Shown here: one piece after another, positions 43,280 to 58,200 of the stretch
Position numbering within the stretch: position 1 is the stretch's first letter
Layout: each line of letters starts with the position of its first letter
The notes under the pieces: generated by a model
The model's input: the letters and a program-made list of their open reading frames with translations, nothing else
What the model was told of the DNA's origin: nothing
The model's database searches: none
Assembly (NCBI GenBank): GCA_029959195.1
Contig: CP114123.1
Span: 310,001-374,000, forward strand
Length of the DNA: 64,000 nt
Direction: 5' to 3'
Source: Dictyophora rubrovolvata
Lineage: Eukaryota; Basidiomycota; Agaricomycetes; Phallales; Phallaceae
Position numbers and translations under genes: made by a program

Positions 43280-44018
43280 GTCTGTTGGAATATGTGAAGT
43301 CTTCGTGATGTAGACTACACAAGCTTTCAAAATAGACAAAGACGTTCAATAAACAGAGTGTATGAAAGTCTCGTTAATTGAAAACTGCTGGAACTAGATA
43401 CAAAAACACTCGCTTTATATATCTTTTGAGACCCAATGATTAAGTAATAAAGAAAAGAAAGACGAAGAAAGGAATGGAAAGTTAAGTAAGGGGAATTGGA
43501 TAAGAATGATTAACTAATAAGGGGAGGGCCGAGGCTCTTGTAGGAGTCGATTCCCTTACAGAATAGCGGGGTTTGCAGTGCACTAAGTCCGAACTTTCTT
43601 TTAGAAGTAATTGCAAAGGAGGGCCCTCCGTCTGTCACGTTCTCCGACGCCGGGGTCGAGCCATTTTCTCGCTGGGTGCGCAATTTTATGATCAAAAGTG
43701 TTTGCTGCCTATGATAAACAATCTCTGTCATTTCTGGTCCGATAATTTAAATCTTGTGGGTGATGGAAGCACAGTGTGGTTGGATATTTAAACGAAGGAA
43801 AGATATTGTTGCATGTTGTTAGTGCGTGTAACATGATAGAACAAATCCCGAACTTAAAAACTGTTGATGTTGGGATTTTGAACATGAGTTTGGTCTGACG
43901 TGAAGGACTTTGGAATCAGTTTATACGGATAGAATAGTGACGCTTTCTTCAGTGTTTGATATTTCGTCTCCCAACGTTCCCTTCATATATTAGAGGATAC
44001 GAAACGAAACAATATTCC
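43280..44018. other. Intergenic stretch with a piece of repeated sequence
   Basis: No gene supported. The segment about 43820-43905 (TGATAGAACAAATCCCGAAC, then CTTAAAAACT) resembles 47420-47505 in the tandem-duplication zone, so part of it belongs to a repeat shared with that region. Confidence 0.45.
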
Positions 44019-45417
44019 TTACGTCGGTCTCGTTGTTATTCTATCTATCCAGCTGAGACATGCCTCATGCCAGCCTTCTTTGATCCCATCCGGCTCATTG
44101 TGCAACTCATGATACCCACCCTGAACGTTAATCAGAGGCGACCTAATATAACTTGAATAATACTTCATCGCTCACAGGAAATGATTTATATGTCTTATCG
44201 GTGGCGTCCACTTTATCAAAGAACATGCTTGAGCCCACAGGACACGTAACCTTCACCCAGTTTTAGTGGATCCCCGTGTGAAAATGATATGACATGCCTG
44301 ATCAGAATCACCATGAAGAATCAAAAGCTAGCACGTGTCAAAAACCTGAGCTGTAAATTGAAGATACTTATGGTCTCGACGTACTGGAAGGTCCTTTGGC
44401 CAGTTCTTGTACCCTTCACGCTCAAGTTCGTCCCCCTGGTAAATATTTAATAATTAACTTGACCTCAAGATAGACGTTTTACATCATCAAGCAAATCCGT
44501 CAAATTCTGCGCAGTTCCCTGCGGGATAATCAATGGATCATCAAGCCACGCCTGAGCTTCCATTGAGTTTCTAGTCAACATCTGTGTTTCGACTTGCGAG
44601 GTAAGTATGTAATAAATGATATGTACACAAAATTTTTACCTCTGGCTTTGTCCCTGTTTGAATGACTAAGTTAGGCATTAAAGGCCGTACGTTGCGTACA
44701 ATCCACCGGACGATCTTGGGCGCCCGAGGTACGGATTTCCAGACGTGGGGTGCATGAGCGATGATTCCAGCAATGAGCCTAACGGACGACTGAGCAGGTG
44801 GTTCTGATTTCCTGGTTACGAAAGAGAGCACTCTTCCGCCTCCCTACAAGGACCCATTAGCCTTCAGCATCGATTAACGACAATATTACTTACCATCGAA
44901 AATCCCATTAAAAACAGAGGGATTCCGGGAAACCGTTGCGCTAATTCGTGGACAAAGAACTCAGTATCCCGCACTTGTGCAGACCCGTTGGTTCGTCCGA
45001 ACGCTGCACCTTTGGCTTTCATTTCTGGATCTGAACATGTTTTTCCATGTCCGCGTTGATCAAAGACAAAAACATGTATTCCACGGGCTGCCCAAGGCCG
45101 GAAAACATCGATATATCTTCCACCTGAGTACCTTTGTAAGAAATCCATGCGAATTCAATACATGAGACTGACTTACCGTGCTCCATTAGGCCGTGCAAAA
45201 ACAACACGACAGCTCTTGGTTGGCCGTTGGGACCAAATTCTCTAGTGTAGAATTTGTCCCCACCCGCACCGTCCTTCCAACCTTCTTTTTCAACCACGCC
45301 CTGAGAGACGTCGTCTGTCTCTGCCATTGTTGGTAAGTAGGCGATGGTGGATGTATTATACCTATTACGACCTTGTCGAAGAGGCCAGCGGCGAAGTACT
45401 GAAGCCTGGCAAATCAC
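44019..45417 (-). CDS. Monoglyceride-lipase-like serine hydrolase
   Basis: Alpha/beta hydrolase that in this family cleaves monoacylglycerols. Reading from MAETDDVSQGVVEKEGW (ATG 45327; an upstream in-frame ATG at 45417 would add 30 residues): AVVLFLHGLMEHGGRYIDVF, RGIHVFVFDQRGHGKT, IPLFLMGFSMGG (nucleophile elbow; GFSMG where most family members have GHSMG), IIAHAPHVWKSVPRAPKIV, YKNWPKDLPLLILHGDSDQV (catalytic Asp) and GGYHELHNEPDG (catalytic His), stop at 44021-44019. The triad is complete. Introns are short and in frame. The one after HGDSDQ appears to use a GC donor (GCATGT) with acceptor GTGAAG before VTCPVGSSMFFDK. A decayed inverted copy of part of this gene lies at 51.86-52.15 kb. Confidence 0.82.
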
Positions 45418-45450
45418 AAAACGGCCATTGAAAGCCGGTCAGCGTTTAGT

Positions 45451-45459
45451 CGGAGTCCG
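45451..45459. promoter_or_regulatory. CGG-N3-CCG element, unit A
   Basis: CGGAGTCCG is an inverted pair of CGG triplets three bases apart, a layout bound by some Zn2Cys6 fungal regulators. It lies just upstream of the lipase start and is conserved at the equivalent place in unit B. Function is inferred only from motif form and conservation. Confidence 0.35.
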
Positions 45460-46161
45460 AACATCATCGATTTGCTGAATTTTTCCTTTGTCTGCTATTC
45501 CGATAGCTATAAAACAAAGCAATCCTGATGTCTCTTTTTTCTGGACCTTGAAAGCACTTCCATCTCGAAAATTATCTTCTTCGTTCACCTTGTACATCTC
45601 AATTTCCATCGTCTATGTGGGATACTCGTAACATCTGGAGAACCTTGTGAACTCCATTTACAGCTTGTTTACAATGGAGAAGTTCACGTCGGGGAAGTCT
45701 TGAATAGCTTTAGATCGGATTAATAGATCGTGGCACGTTTCTGACGTTTCTTATTCAAAAGCTATCTCTAAAATAAACGACATGGGTTTGCTATTGGTGA
45801 CTACAAAAGATAGCAGCTAAACAAGCGAGCTAGACAAAGGCTAGTAGTAAGCCATTGGACGACAATTCTTTGTGGGGTAGCTTGGTATTTTTATTGACTA
45901 TATTTAGATGATGGTACACATGCTTGTTCAATTGGTCATACAAAGCAATAGAGAGAGAAAGAAACGGAGACAGTGAAATGGAGGAGCATCATGTGAGTCG
46001 ACCAGCACCACCCTTTGTAGTCCATCCTTAGTTGCATCAACAGCGTGGATCCATAAATGACGTTCATCATCATGCTTGGAAAAGGATTCGTCCAGACATG
46101 TAGATGCAGGAGATGTCAACGGAGGTTTGTCTTCGCTCACGGGGACAGGAGCACGCAATGG

Positions 46162-47030
46162 TCATGTTGGAGGATCGGGTTTGGCAAGGGGCGCTGTAAG
46201 GAGATTATGTAGATGAGCCAATATGTATTGGCGTCCCTTCCGAAGCACCTCATCAGGTAAGATCCAGCCCGAATCTATTGTGTCACCTTCGAGCTCATCT
46301 ATCTCTTCCTCAAGCTCGCGGTGTTCCTGAAAAGAGTTAAAGGTGAGTCATACGGGAATGGGATTAAATACGAACATTTTCGTATTGCTCTTCGCCATCG
46401 CCATCGCAGGAGTCTTTGAGGACTGTAAATCCTTGAACAATGGTGACAGAATGGTTTTCGAAGTGACTGCCTGGTGGGGCGATTGGACATGCTTCGTCGT
46501 CTACGAGGCCTTCTGGATTTTCTTCCACAAGAGCCCCACCCTCTCGCCTCTGCCTTATCCTCCTGTGCTTCACCCAGGTATAAAGTCGTCTTTCGTAACT
46601 AAATTCCAATATTTTTTTCAGTATCAGCTTTCAAATCCACAACGATCACGTACTGTTCAAACCAAATTTGGGCCAAGTTCTCCTTGTCTTTGGGACTGCG
46701 CGTGATATTTTGAAGCCTCTTCTCTGTCAAAATTAGGGCCCATTCGGATCTTAATTGACGTTTAGGGTACTGTGTGGTTTCGAAACACTTTTCGAGAAAG
46801 TCTATTTCCCACTGAACCCATTTTTTGGCTGGGTTTCTTATGTGCCCACTGCGTGTAGTGTACTTTTGTTCAGGAAGGCACTCCTCGTTTTCTTTTGTTT
46901 CGACATCGTTCATTTTGGATTCCAGTTTAGAATCTTCGACGCTGCTCAACGGTAGGGCTGAAGATGACGTGCCACTATTGACAGCGGTGGGGTGTCTAAC
47001 TGGAATTCGGATTTTTAAGCCACTGCTCAT
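46162..47030 (-). CDS. Homeodomain-like protein A (tandem paralogue)
   Basis: Three exons (47030-46654, 46598-46376, 46326-46162) sum to 765 nt, 254 aa, in frame. After a Ser-rich N-terminus, KKWVQWEIDFLEKCFETTQY resembles homeodomain helix 1 and LRSEWALILTEKRL helix 2. After an insert (RSPKDKENLAQIWFEH), YERRLYTWVKHRRIRQRRE resembles the recognition helix (consensus V.WFQNRR.K), but the WF is changed to WV and N to H. The helix-3 segment is built across the first intron. The C-terminus is acidic and ends at TGA 46164-46162, about 50 residues earlier than in paralogue B. A DNA-binding role is inferred. The alternative is one of the agaric-specific families with a WF(R/K)N motif. Confidence 0.6.
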
Positions 47031-47615
47031 TTTCGAAATTTATGGTGCTTTATAATTGGGACGAAGGATAGGGGTGATAAGATTGGAATTTAGAGGTGTG
47101 TGTGGGAGTGGGTCCAACAGCAAGAGAGTTAAACGTTAAACGATCTGGAGCTTGAAGAAAGACATCCAGCCTTAAGGACTCTTTATAATGTCTGCCCGTA
47201 AGCCCGACGTCGTTGATCCGTGTCCAAGGGCATGCTTATACATGAGTTATGTATACGCAAATGGACGTCTTGTCCAGTCGTCCCCGTCCTGGTCTATGAT
47301 CGAATCAATTGCTTCACTTGTCCAAGGCATATCTTCAAAACTAACATAGTTTAAATGATTGATATTTGAACGAGAGAAGATTTAAATATATTCTTGTGTT
47401 GTGCCAGTGTTAGAGTGTGTAAATGATAGAACGAATCTTGAACTTAAAAACTCAGCGTTAATGTTGAGATTAAGTTGAGATTGAATATGAATTTTTCTGA
47501 CGGGATTTCGGTGCTAACGAAGACTTCTAATTTGTCTATATAGTAGTATAAATGCGATTTGCGAATAGAACACGGTTATATGATGTTTTCGCCGTAAATG
47601 GCGGCCGCGTTTGGT

Positions 47616-47624
47616 CGGAGTCCG
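47616..47624. promoter_or_regulatory. CGG-N3-CCG element, unit B
   Basis: CGGAGTCCG, 2165 bp from the unit A copy, followed in both units by GAAYATCAT and then by a TATA-like GCTATAAAAC. Confidence 0.35.
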
Positions 47625-48176
47625 AATATCATATACTTGCCGAACTTTTCTTTGTTTGCTAGGCTGCCGAATCCGATAGCTATAAAACGAAGTGATCCTG
47701 ATACTATCCGTTTTTTATAAACTCTTCCCAACTCCAAATTATTTCAAAAGTCTTCCTTACATTGTTGATCTTAACTCGTGGCTTCATCATCTTCAGTTCC
47801 CATCGTCGATGACTACGGTGGGATAGCAACATTCAATTTATCATAGTCTTGTGAAGGCCTCAAGCATTTGAATTACGCCAGATTGGGATAATAGAGTAGT
47901 ACGTTTCCCGTTTACGTTGTTCCTTTGAAAGCTTTCATTCTAATACCAATGACATAGGGTCTCTTATGACTCTGAAGATAGTTTCTAAACAAGCGAGCTA
48001 GACAAAGGCAAACCATTGGAATTGGATGACAATGTCTTCTATGAGATAACTTGTAATTTTTATTGACTATATCTCAGATGATCATACAAATACTCGTTGA
48101 ACAAGACATACAAAGCCAGAGAGAGAAAGAAACAGAGATAGTACAATGGAGAAGGAATCATGTGAGTCGTCCTACG

Positions 48177-49205
48177 CTACCCTTTACGGCCCATCTTTAG
48201 TTGCATCAACAGCATGGCTCCATAAATGACGTCGTCGTCGTACTTTGCAAGAAACTCGTTCTGACCCGTGGATGCAGGAAATGTCAATGGAGCTTGAGGT
48301 CGGCTTTCGTTCACAGGTTCATCCCGACATGCTGAGGTAGTCGTGGGTAGAGGACTTTGTAAGGACGCAAGATGGGCCAAAATGTCTAGTCGGTTTCCGG
48401 TTTTTAACACCTCATCATCAAGCGAGTAGGTTTGTTGAGGGTTATCGTTTTCACGCCTGTCAGATACAGACTGACCCTCCTCGCTTTCCGGCGAGTCATC
48501 ACGGAATTCCTGGAAAGAGTTGAAGGTGAGTTATACAGGACAGTGAGACTAAATACGAACCTCTTCATCGTCCTCTTCGTGATAGCGATGGTTTTTGGTG
48601 GCCGTGGATTTCTGAATACCGGTGACAGAATGGTTCTGAACTTTAGTTCGAGGCATTGCAACTCGACTTTCTTCGTCGTCTTCGAGGCCATCTGGATTTT
48701 CTTCCACAAGAGCATCACCCTCTCGCCTTAGCTTCGCCTTCCTGTTCTTGAACCAGTTAAAAAGTCGTCTTTTGTAACTAAATTTCAACGTTTTTTCTCA
48801 ATATTAGCATCCTAAATTGACGACGATCACGTACTGTGCAAGCCAAACTTGGGCCAAATTCTCCTTGTCTTCGGAACTGGGCTTAATATTCCGAAGCCGC
48901 TTCTCTGTCAAAATTAAGGACCATTTAGACCTTAATGAATGGCCTGGGCATCGTGTTGTTTCCCAGCACTTCTCGAGAAAGTCTATCTCCCATTGGATCC
49001 ATCTTTCAGGTGGGTTTCTTTTGTTCCCACTGCGTGCAGTGAACTTTCTTTCAGGAAGGTACTCCGTGTTTCTTTCCACATTCATTTCGGATTGAGATTT
49101 AGACTTTTTGATGCTGCTCGACGGTTGGATCATTGAAGATGACGCGCCGCTATTGACCAAGGTGGAACGTCTAGTAGGAATTCGAATCTTTAAGCCACTG
49201 CTCAT
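48177..49205 (-). CDS. Homeodomain-like protein B (tandem paralogue)
   Basis: Three exons (49205-48835, 48777-48561, 48509-48177) sum to 921 nt, 306 aa, in frame, with the same intron positions as paralogue A. The N-terminus MSSGLKIRIPTRR matches A. ERWIQWEIDFLEKCWETTRC, LRSKWSLILTEKRL, the insert KPSSEDKENLAQVWLAH and YKRRLFNWFKNRKAKLRRE follow. Here the helix-3-like segment keeps WFKNRKAK, close to the homeodomain consensus, so B looks the more conserved of the pair. A longer C-terminus follows (EVLKTGNRLDILAHLASLQS to LMQLKMGRKG). The start was chosen by alignment with A; an in-frame ATG at 49301 would add 32 residues. Function unknown. Confidence 0.65.
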
Positions 49206-49640
49206 TATGAATTTTTTGAATGGGGACGAAGTGCAAGGGCGTGAGTTCAAGTTGTATTGAGGGGTTGGAACAAAAGGGGGATTGGTAGAACCCAAAAGCA
49301 AGTGATATGGAGCTTAAAGAGAAAGATCCCCAGCCTTCAGGGCTCTTTATACTGTCTGCCCGAGGCTTGACGTCGTTGGTCTGTGTCCTAGGACACACTT
49401 ACTTACGAGTTTACCGCAAATGGACATCTTGTCCCAGCTGTCCTCGTCCTGGTGCTATAGTCAATTGCGTTACTTGTACATCCTCAAAAGCAACACGGCC
49501 TGAACCAATTCCTTATTGTACAAATCTTATCAGATTAGAGCTCAACAATCTTGTAACACAAACTGATAGTTTTGCATAGTATTATTACCTAACAACTGCG
49601 AGATCATGAGTCTGAATTGGAATATGTATAAGATATCCCC

Positions 49641-55271: not shown

Positions 55272-58200
55272 TTATATATCTGTTTGGTGCAGCTGTTGGT
55301 TGAGAAAAAATCGCAAAAACGCATCTGAGTCAACCATGTCATTGAGATAAAATAACATTCCGGTCTTCTCAAATGTCGGGATCATATGGCAGGCCCAAAT
55401 GAGATATTTCACGAAGACGAACTCAGCTTTTTTTGACTCTTTAAAAACCTGGCAACCCTCCCAAATCGTTTTTGCTTTCCATGTAGATGGCTCCAAGTGT
55501 GTTACCAATGCAATGTCATGGCAATTCCTACTGCGACTTTTGAATGTAAATAAAGCATGGATTCGACCAAATGATATAGGTGCGGTGTTGATCACTACAC
55601 AATCATATTGGGGTTGGCCGAAAAATTCTCGATTACACCGAAGGATGTCTTGGTGCTCCTGCCAGTTCTCTAAAGAGCAATACTGAAGATACAAACATTG
55701 ATATGGTTTGAGCTATTGACAGAATGTTATCAGTATGCCCTCTCCGAGCCGAAAAAAACATGCCTTCAACAAGTGGGATGGCCGTTCTATGTCAGGTAAA
55801 AATTCGGCCAAAAACTCCCTCAGTCACATTTCAAAGTGATTGAAAGGGTGGTTCCCAAGCTCGTTTGACTCCCACTCCTCTGCAGACACTGTAGCTAATG
55901 GGGACCCTAGTCTCCAATAGCCATGTTCCGCCACTACTGGTGGTAGTTTGTCTCTGTCATTTTCAGCCTCTTCCTCGGCAGCCATCTGTTTTGCCTTGTC
56001 ATGTTCACTCACAGCGAGTGTTATACGTGCTATCGCTTCTTGATTCTCGTCGATTCAGATCATCTGGCATCATTAAATGAATGTTTGGTATAATTTGACA
56101 TGGGAAGCGGTTCCATACCTGTAAGTCCGTATTCCGGAAATTTGTCTGATTGTAAACTTGCTGGACTTCCTGCTGAAAGCCTTCGCCTGGCCGTGTAGTG
56201 TAGTTATCTGTGGATCCCTTCATTTGCAAATCAAAGGAAAGATGAATCAGGGAATGGTGCTTGAGATACGCATAATTTTTGCCATAAAGTTGGGTCAATT
56301 TCTGATGTGCATTTAATTGACAGGAGATGGCATAGACATTATTCAACACTTACTGCACAGTATTTTTCATACTTAGGGAGACACTCCTTCAAATACACTA
56401 TATGTTCTTCAGAGACCGGGCGGAGGACAGCAATACTACGGATAATGGCCAAGGTGCGAAAACAATGTACCACTGGCGATTTTGCAGGAAGTATATTCAC
56501 TATGCAAAAGACAATAGACTAAACATAATTAGTGGCTGATATTGTATAATAATTAGAGAACATGTACCTTTAATATATCGCGATAGCTGTTGCTGTCCGC
56601 AAAATCTACGCCAGTGACATTATTGAAATGTTTGAGTGTGGGCCATCTCGGGATCTCCCGCATGCTGAGGATGTTGAGTTTAACATGTTTGCATTTGCAA
56701 AATGGGGGCCGGCAACTTACTTGAGAGAGAGCTGTTTGTTTTCTTGTGTATTTAAGATATGATCTGTCAGCAAGACCCATTGGTGTTTTCCCCATTCGCC
56801 AGAGTCCATTGCGTGCAACATATCATAGGAGTATGCAAAGTATGGATCAGAATGTGCAATACTCCAAAAAGCATTCTAAATATATATTTACATGAATGTA
56901 ATTGAAAAGAGTACAAATAAATACCTTAATCAGATGTAACCCTGAGTCTCGTAGCAGCTTTTCAGCTGCCATTGCTGGCAAGGTCAAAGCTTCTTCAAAT
57001 ACTGCTTTCATGTTGTCCTGAGTGCGAAGTGTCAGTAACGTGGTTAGATCAGTAAGAGAGTGGTGATAGGCTAAGCAATGTGGACACGGATGGTTGGCTT
57101 GGGTGCCCCAAGTGCCACATATACAGCATCCCTCTTCCATATCAACAGCTTGAATAAATATTCCTGTGTGTAAAACTCGTGTCAGTTCATCCCCACATAT
57201 CACAGCCTCTCCATGATGGGAGCACCGGCGAATCGTGCGGAAGATGACACGGTGTATTTTGTGGTAAACTTCTCTTTTGAACCTGGCCAACTCCACAGAG
57301 GTCAGAGAATCATCTTCTTCTTCAGCTGAAATGTTGGGTTCTCCCACCTAGAAAGATATCAAATTCATTGGGTTCTGCAAACAGCCCAATTGTCACTTAC
57401 TATAGGCATGTAACCGATCAGGATTCCTCCACCATTCCCAGAGCCGTTTCGGATTGGGCTTGGGAGGAAGCCAGGCTGCAAAATGATGGGATGTTTGGTC
57501 ACTGTCTTAGCGACACTACTTTTGTCCAGCCACAAGTGCAATGGAAGAAAACAGTGTGGTATGTCATCCTCTTTGGGCAGCAAGTCCTACATGCATCCTG
57601 AATGAGTGTTATTAAAACCAACCATGAACACTTATTTACCTGTATTTCCCACTAGCGTTCACCTGTGTTAAGTTCATCATATATTCTGGTTATACGACTA
57701 CCAGAATAGAGCCACTTTTGCTCCGGATATCAAGTGATTGACTCTGCCAGCGTTGGATCAGCAACAATGTCCAAAATACATTGCCACGGATCACGATATT
57801 GAAATGTGAAGGTATAATCCTTCCCCTTGAAGTTATGAACGACTTTTTCTTCCTGGAACTTTCACGTTTTCCATCAGGATTGAAAACATGCATAGCAAAT
57901 ATGTACTTACTTGCACACCAAATTTCCGGGCTGCTGACAATGATGACTGATAATCTTTGTAATTTTTGATGGTCAAGTCTGTCGTATGTGCCCACTGACC
58001 ATTGAATCCCTCTAAAACCGTTTCAATGGTTTCTCGGTCGAGGGCTTTGGAAACGGCAAGCCGAGAAAACTCGAAATCTGCGTGTGTGCGAAATGGGGCC
58101 CAAGGTTGGCTATCGGGTATACCAACAGTGGGCCGGGTTTGAGACAGTTGGGGTGATGATTGGTGGTCCAAGGCAATGTCAAATGGACTTCGCTCGCTGT

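Follow-up and report, generated by a model that had tools for sequence, protein, structure and literature searches.

In homeodomains the third helix sits in the major groove of DNA: asparagine 51 (N51) contacts an adenine and lysine 50 (K50) reads the bases 3′ of the core. Here we describe two genes, A and B, in a 64,000-nucleotide stretch of the Dictyophora rubrovolvata genome (the window: positions 310001-374000 of contig CP114123.1, here C7, in a genome of 28.24 Mb and 11 contigs). At a probability of about 0.8 the two genes encode members of a fungal family of transcription regulators that bind DNA sequence-specifically and are built on a homeodomain with a 23-residue insert in loop 2, the segment between helices 2 and 3. 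By sequence, genes of the B kind belong to the homeodomain superfamily, of which the insert makes them a variant; HNF1 and Prospero are known to carry inserts in loop 2, so the variant is of a known homeodomain type.

The HNF class (HNF1A, also LF-B1) has a long loop-2 insert, and so does the family, without homology of the two inserts being implied. The HNF-class protein FLJ21616 (PDB 2cuf), which we take to be HMBOX1, matched the family in one stretch over profile positions 7-83 at an E value of 1.7, which is not significant. The HNF (POU-like) domain was not found upstream in whole A or B (Pfam, E≤10), where some 60 residues precede the homeodomain. Position 50 is alanine in HNF1A, according to one source (PMC4901127), and lysine in the family (glutamate in one copy, L012); no end-to-end alignment with HNF1 was obtained. 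The PRD-like homeodomains with K50, OTX2 and PITX2, are among the best PDB matches and have K50 and a helix 3 of the form WFKNR(R/K)AK in common with the family; unlike the family they are animal proteins with a canonical loop 2 that lacks an insert. PRD-like homeodomains have arginine as residue 5, again as given in PMC4901127, whereas six of the seven family members with open frames have proline or alanine there; the seventh (L015) has arginine. The TALE (three-amino-acid loop extension) class was also considered and rejected: its three extra loop-1 residues were not found and the spacing between helices 1 and 2 is canonical (hhalign).

A first-pass annotation, made from the letters of the window alone, had placed a tandem pair of homeodomain-like genes at 45435..49490, and such a pair is indeed present. 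Fifteen direct-repeat families run in register through positions 45442-49411 with a spacing of 2163-2185 bases, one of them with a third copy (60%) at 49531; BLAST aligns the units of A and B in two pieces, 72.8% and 74.4% identical, with the alignment extending to 49480. The features of the pair are as follows.

45442..49480, no strand assigned: two duplicated units in tandem, each of about 2.17 kb (direct repeats and BLAST)
45442-47324: unit with A, comprising 5′ flank, gene and 3′ flank
47607-49480: unit with B, comprising 5′ flank, gene and 3′ flank
46162..47030, minus strand: gene A, 254 amino acids (aa), exons 47030-46654, 46598-46376 and 46326-46162
48177..49205, minus strand: gene B, 306 aa, exons 49205-48835, 48777-48561 and 48509-48177
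46599..46653, minus strand: intron 1 of A, 55 nucleotides (nt), sequence-based model
48778..48834, minus strand: intron 1 of B, 57 nt, sequence-based model

The gene models draw on the sequence and on conservation among copies. Each gene has three exons, and the GT...AG introns (55 and 57 nt for the first, 49 and 51 nt for the second) occupy positions common to both. The spliced models bear out what had been reported of the two proteins: a common N-terminus (MSSGLKIRIP), two common intron positions, a W..WEIDFLEKC...LRS.W helix pair (W.QWEIDFLEKC...LRS.W in both A and B), WFKNRKAK in B against WVKHRRIR in A, and a shorter C-terminus in A. Intron 1 splits a codon at homeodomain (HD) position 40, immediately ahead of helix 3, and does so at the identical position in all seven open family copies. 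Because the codon is cut there, reading without splicing adds some 18-19 spurious residues ahead of helix 3. Judged from the sequence, retention of intron 1 in A or B would end translation ahead of helix 3, so that its splicing could act as a switch.

Within the proteins the domain is laid out as follows.

48720..49007, minus strand: homeodomain of B (HD positions 6-59), split by intron 1 (Pfam and hhalign on the exon model)
48840..48908, minus strand: loop-2 insert of B, 23 residues (B residues 100-122), between HD 38 and 39 (hhalign and exon model)
46659..46727, minus strand: loop-2 insert of A, 23 residues (A residues 102-124; alignment and exon model)
48729..48758, minus strand: recognition-helix core of B, NWFKNRKAKL, with K50 and N51 (exon model)
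46550..46579, minus strand: recognition-helix core of A, TWVKHRRIRQ, with N51 changed to H and F49 to V (exon model)

This domain is most likely a homeodomain. Evidence comes firstly from profile comparison. A family profile (A2) built from the seven open members was aligned by hhalign with six homeodomains – these, like the HNF1 homeodomains and Myb repeats used below, were entered by hand – and gave a probability of 96.1% (E 3.5e-9) over 54 columns spanning helices 1-3. The match exceeds chance, as 30 column-shuffled versions of A2 reached homeodomain probabilities of at most 1.5%. A Myb-like fold was rejected: against two Myb repeats the probability was 0.1%. Searched against PDB sequences with hmmsearch, A2 returned 51 matches at E≤10, and all four with E≤0.001 were homeodomains, headed by OTX2 (2.9e-5), paired mesoderm homeobox 2, Paired and Pax6; ribosomal protein L17 accounts for three of the 51. 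In each of the five PDB alignments listed, helices 1-2 and helix 3 pair as two pieces, neither of which is significant alone: only their sum is.

The Pfam Homeodomain model (PF00046, cut-off 22.9 bits) was tested on the 88-aa domain alone and on whole proteins. With the domain alone two of the seven open members exceed the cut-off (B, 25.1 bits, E 1.6e-5; L009, 24.0 bits) and three fall below it (L012 and L014, 22.3 bits each; L015, 16.7 bits, E 0.0064), all five with E<0.01. The first-pass proposal of a homeodomain-type domain in both genes is supported. The annotation had gone further and offered the pair as a candidate for an undescribed regulator family. This was not established: the general Pfam model already matches two of the seven members above its cut-off.

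Individual residues were compared in A, B, L009, L011, L012 and L014. P26, L38 and W48 are kept in all six, F20 (tryptophan in B), Y25 and A35 in five, and L16, R31, F49 and N51 in four. Read at positions 16, 20, 48, 49 and 51 the residues are L, W, W, F, N in B; L, F, W, F, N in L009; M, F, W, F, N in L012; I, F, W, F, N in L014; and L, F, W, V, H in both A and L011. By these residues the B kind carries the homeodomain signature with like-for-like swaps, and A and L011 lack F49 and N51. All six deviate in having tryptophan at HD 34.

The insert appears in the A2-homeodomain alignment as a single gap of 23 residues between HD 38 and 39, starting where helix 2 ends (TEKRL) and reaching to just ahead of helix 3. 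An insert before the recognition helix had been noticed at first reading; its place stands, its length of roughly 16 residues does not. One tryptophan within it (profile position 59) is invariant in all seven members, and in L015 the insert has six additional residues. A fold was predicted for B with intron 1 kept (19 intron-coded residues), two stops set to glycine, and exon pieces of other copies added. In this weak model (predicted local distance difference test, pLDDT, 63) helices fall at 8-24, 30-47, 52-72 and 79-108, the last two containing intron-coded residues; this would place an extra helix in the insert.

If A and B are homeodomain regulators, then B and the copies of its majority type would most likely contact DNA as homeodomains ordinarily do, with K50-type specificity; we infer both binding and regulation from the family to which the domain belongs. 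The insert, probably helical, may pack beside helices 2 and 3 or offer a surface for interaction. Partners may be recruited by an acidic middle (DDSPESEEGQS) and by a C-terminal segment, KYDDDVI.GA.LLM.LK.G, common to B, L009 and L012.

The family extends well beyond the pair. Protein queries with B, L015 and L014 found the identical ten loci and none beyond them, a count that is a lower bound: the genome holds at least ten.

C7: A, B, L009 (411 kb), L010 (428 kb) and L011 (439 kb)
C1: L012 (2657 kb) and L016 (2830 kb)
C6: L013 (720 kb)
C3: L014 (2892 kb) and L015 (369 kb)

The spliced frame is open in seven (A, B, L009, L011, L012, L014 and L015; in L012 from a later start codon), with both introns placed alike; the other three, L010, L013 and L016, are broken copies, interrupted by stops or changes of frame. 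Ratios of nonsynonymous to synonymous substitution rates (dN/dS), computed on the seven open loci, are 0.14-0.25 in all six pairs among B, L009, L012 and L014, at synonymous divergences (dS) of 0.6 to 2.7, and it follows that conservation within the family exceeds chance. The values are higher for A-B (0.50) and A-L009 (0.35). Such ratios indicate that the family proteins are under constraint, least in the A branch.

As fungi usually carry fewer than a dozen homeobox genes, according to PMC4901127, at least ten loci (seven open) of one divergent type would mark an unusual expansion in a genome of 28 Mb. For the mushroom Volvariella volvacea PMC11508405 lists VvHox1-8. Among the matches listed, open-access titles and abstracts named no homeodomain family as expanded or atypical in mushrooms or in basidiomycetes at large. 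Ten pattern matches in viral contigs included no relative.

Mushroom mating-type proteins HD1 and HD2 are likewise homeodomain regulators, and occur in the same genome. They differ from the family in lacking its loop-2 insert, in helix 3 and in location, and the family was not assigned to their class: its loci are on C7, C1, C6 and, on C3, at 369 kb and 2892 kb, and an HD1-like gene is at C3:2114243. This HD1-like mating-type homeodomain gene (L027, C3:2112743-2115850) carries the motif WFTNARRR; further homeodomain matches lie nearby at C3:2109478 and C3:2066935.

Of particular interest is the history of gene A, for which two further features are needed.

43570..47293, no strand assigned: block with gene A, 90.6% identical to C7:438,897-442,603 (L032, which carries L011; BLAST)
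46011..46161, minus strand: relic of the lost C-terminus of A (tblastn of B on the window, E 3e-9)

Helix 3 of A differs at six positions: N47 to T, F49 to V, N51 to H, K53 to R, A54 to I and L56 to Q. The same helix 3 and the same early stop are found in L011, 82 kb from A; the 3.8-kb block shared by the two takes in an alpha/beta-hydrolase gene (∼44.5-45.3 kb, minus strand), or at least its 5′ part. Past the stop of A the relic still resembles the C-terminal residues of B, with a frame break inside. In a phylogenetic tree A and L011 form a clade with an ultrafast bootstrap support of 100, B groups with L009 and L010 (93), and L009 with L010 (97); the position of L013 has a support of 62. Since L011 shares the change and the nearest kin of B are L009 and L010, the change in helix 3 sits on the stem of A and L011. 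The divergence of helix 3 noticed at first reading stands, but not as an event private to the A/B pair: L011 shares both the helix and the truncation.

A branch test on A, B, L009, L011, L012 and L014 counted 13 changes in the domain on the A/L011 stem, 3 on the B branch and 4 on the L009 branch. Six of the 13 fall within the ten residues of the helix-3 core (residues 69-78, p 0.0005), a value made optimistic by the fact that these residues were picked after seeing the sequences; over the whole helix (63-81) the concentration has a p of 0.03. A point that weighs against a distinctive change on this stem is its length (0.21; the branches of B and L009 measure 0.12 and 0.08-0.09): being about twice as long, it makes the excess of 13 over 3 and 4 partly a matter of time.

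In the A type (A and L011) the N-terminus and the region of helices 1-2 were kept while helix 3 was remodelled and the C-terminal segment lost; given the latter two changes, these proteins may read another sequence, or serve as competitor or partner without an effector end. The main competitor of this account, a serious one though short of even odds, is that A-type copies are decaying duplicates freed of constraint, the working regulators being the B-like copies only. A and L011 share the stop that removes the C-terminus, relics remain downstream, N51 is gone from both, and of the ten family loci three are no longer intact. Between A and L011, moreover, dN/dS outside the domain is 0.71, the two rates not differing significantly (p 0.59; 0.08 for the entire protein). 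Yet the frame has remained open in both copies, the changes in helix 3 retain W48 and most of the positive charge, and the domain shows one nonsynonymous against three synonymous differences (Fisher p 0.025, from very few events). With such small counts the pattern fits either a retained new specificity or a truncated copy in slow decay. Among the matches listed, a literature search on homeodomains without Asn51 yielded nothing relevant.

Several observations weigh against the homeodomain reading itself. With the domain alone PF00046 scores A at 14.0 bits (E 0.046) and L011 at 11.2 bits (E 0.34), and unrelated Pfam families do as well or slightly better (Phage_lysozyme2, 0.036, in A; XendoU, 0.15, in L011). 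With whole proteins both B (19.8 bits) and A (8.9 bits, E 1.8) fall below the cut-off, the result for whole A being the adverse one. The residues at HD 5 noted above are atypical, as is histidine at HD 40 in all six sequences compared. A genome-wide search with PF00046 gave 12 matches and touched one of the ten family loci (L014 exon 2, 14.9 bits); this search ran on single exons, and the domain is divided between two of them by intron 1. The fold model of B, weak and helical, found a bromodomain as its best Foldseek match (E 1.1), with no homeodomain among the 50 of 142 matches listed. We regard this read-through result as uninformative: it neither supports nor refutes a homeodomain.

Part of this evidence invites the suggestion that the likeness is limited to helix 3, the remainder being an unrelated helical fold, so that the protein would resemble homeodomains in a single motif. 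The Pfam alignment of B begins inside the insert and covers HD 21-57 in a rival register, A2 aligns with HNF1 homeodomains over helix 3 alone (58%), and Foldseek listed no homeodomain. We think this improbable, as helices 1-2 recur – weakly each time – in canonical register as the leading piece of each of the five PDB alignments listed, and Pfam stretches cover them in A (HD 11-35), L011 (11-37), L015 (1-34), L009 (11-57) and L012 (13-56). A2 also aligns with three homeodomains of this genome whose sequences end ahead of or inside helix 3; the match spans helices 1-2 only (19.5%) and counts both against the homeodomain reading and against a resemblance confined to helix 3. The profile-profile alignment, finally, covers all three helices.

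A homeodomain thus remains the preferred identity of the domain. A more specific history is possible but doubtful: a mushroom homeodomain lineage with a fourth helix in loop 2, spread by segmental duplication, in which A and L011 lost the near-universal N51, rebuilt helix 3 in a burst and were then re-constrained. If true, it would be a natural experiment in switching the DNA specificity of a homeodomain, or in making a dominant competitor. The A/L011 branch would allow tests of how the DNA code of a homeodomain is kept or altered once N51 is lost, and the family as a whole would allow the effect of a loop-2 insert to be tested outside the HNF class.

An account in which a mobile element carried the copies as cargo, or left them as relics, with no regulatory role in the host is likewise improbable: ten dispersed copies on four contigs, three of them broken, and a Plavaka transposase domain at 56850-57347 would suit it, but the duplicates carry flanks of differing length and differing neighbour genes, as in segmental duplication (an alpha/beta hydrolase beside A and L011, a GFO/IDH/MocA oxidoreductase beside B and L013), and in neither A nor B does Pfam find a family of transposases or recombinases.

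The surroundings of the pair contain further features. The Plavaka domain (PF18759, E 2.7e-12) is on the minus strand of the window, as is the GFO/IDH/MocA-type oxidoreductase gene that adjoins B at ∼49.6-50.7 kb. The gene and the unit of B together have a 72.5% match at C6:718,321-721,633, where the broken copy L013 lies. Further along C7, positions 404000-454000 (L029-L033) form an array of dense segmental duplications, with stretches of up to 3.3 kb at ∼65-87% identity, that holds three family copies plus other repeated stretches. Window positions 51.3-51.7, 54.5-54.9 and 63.5-64.0 kb recur in this array.

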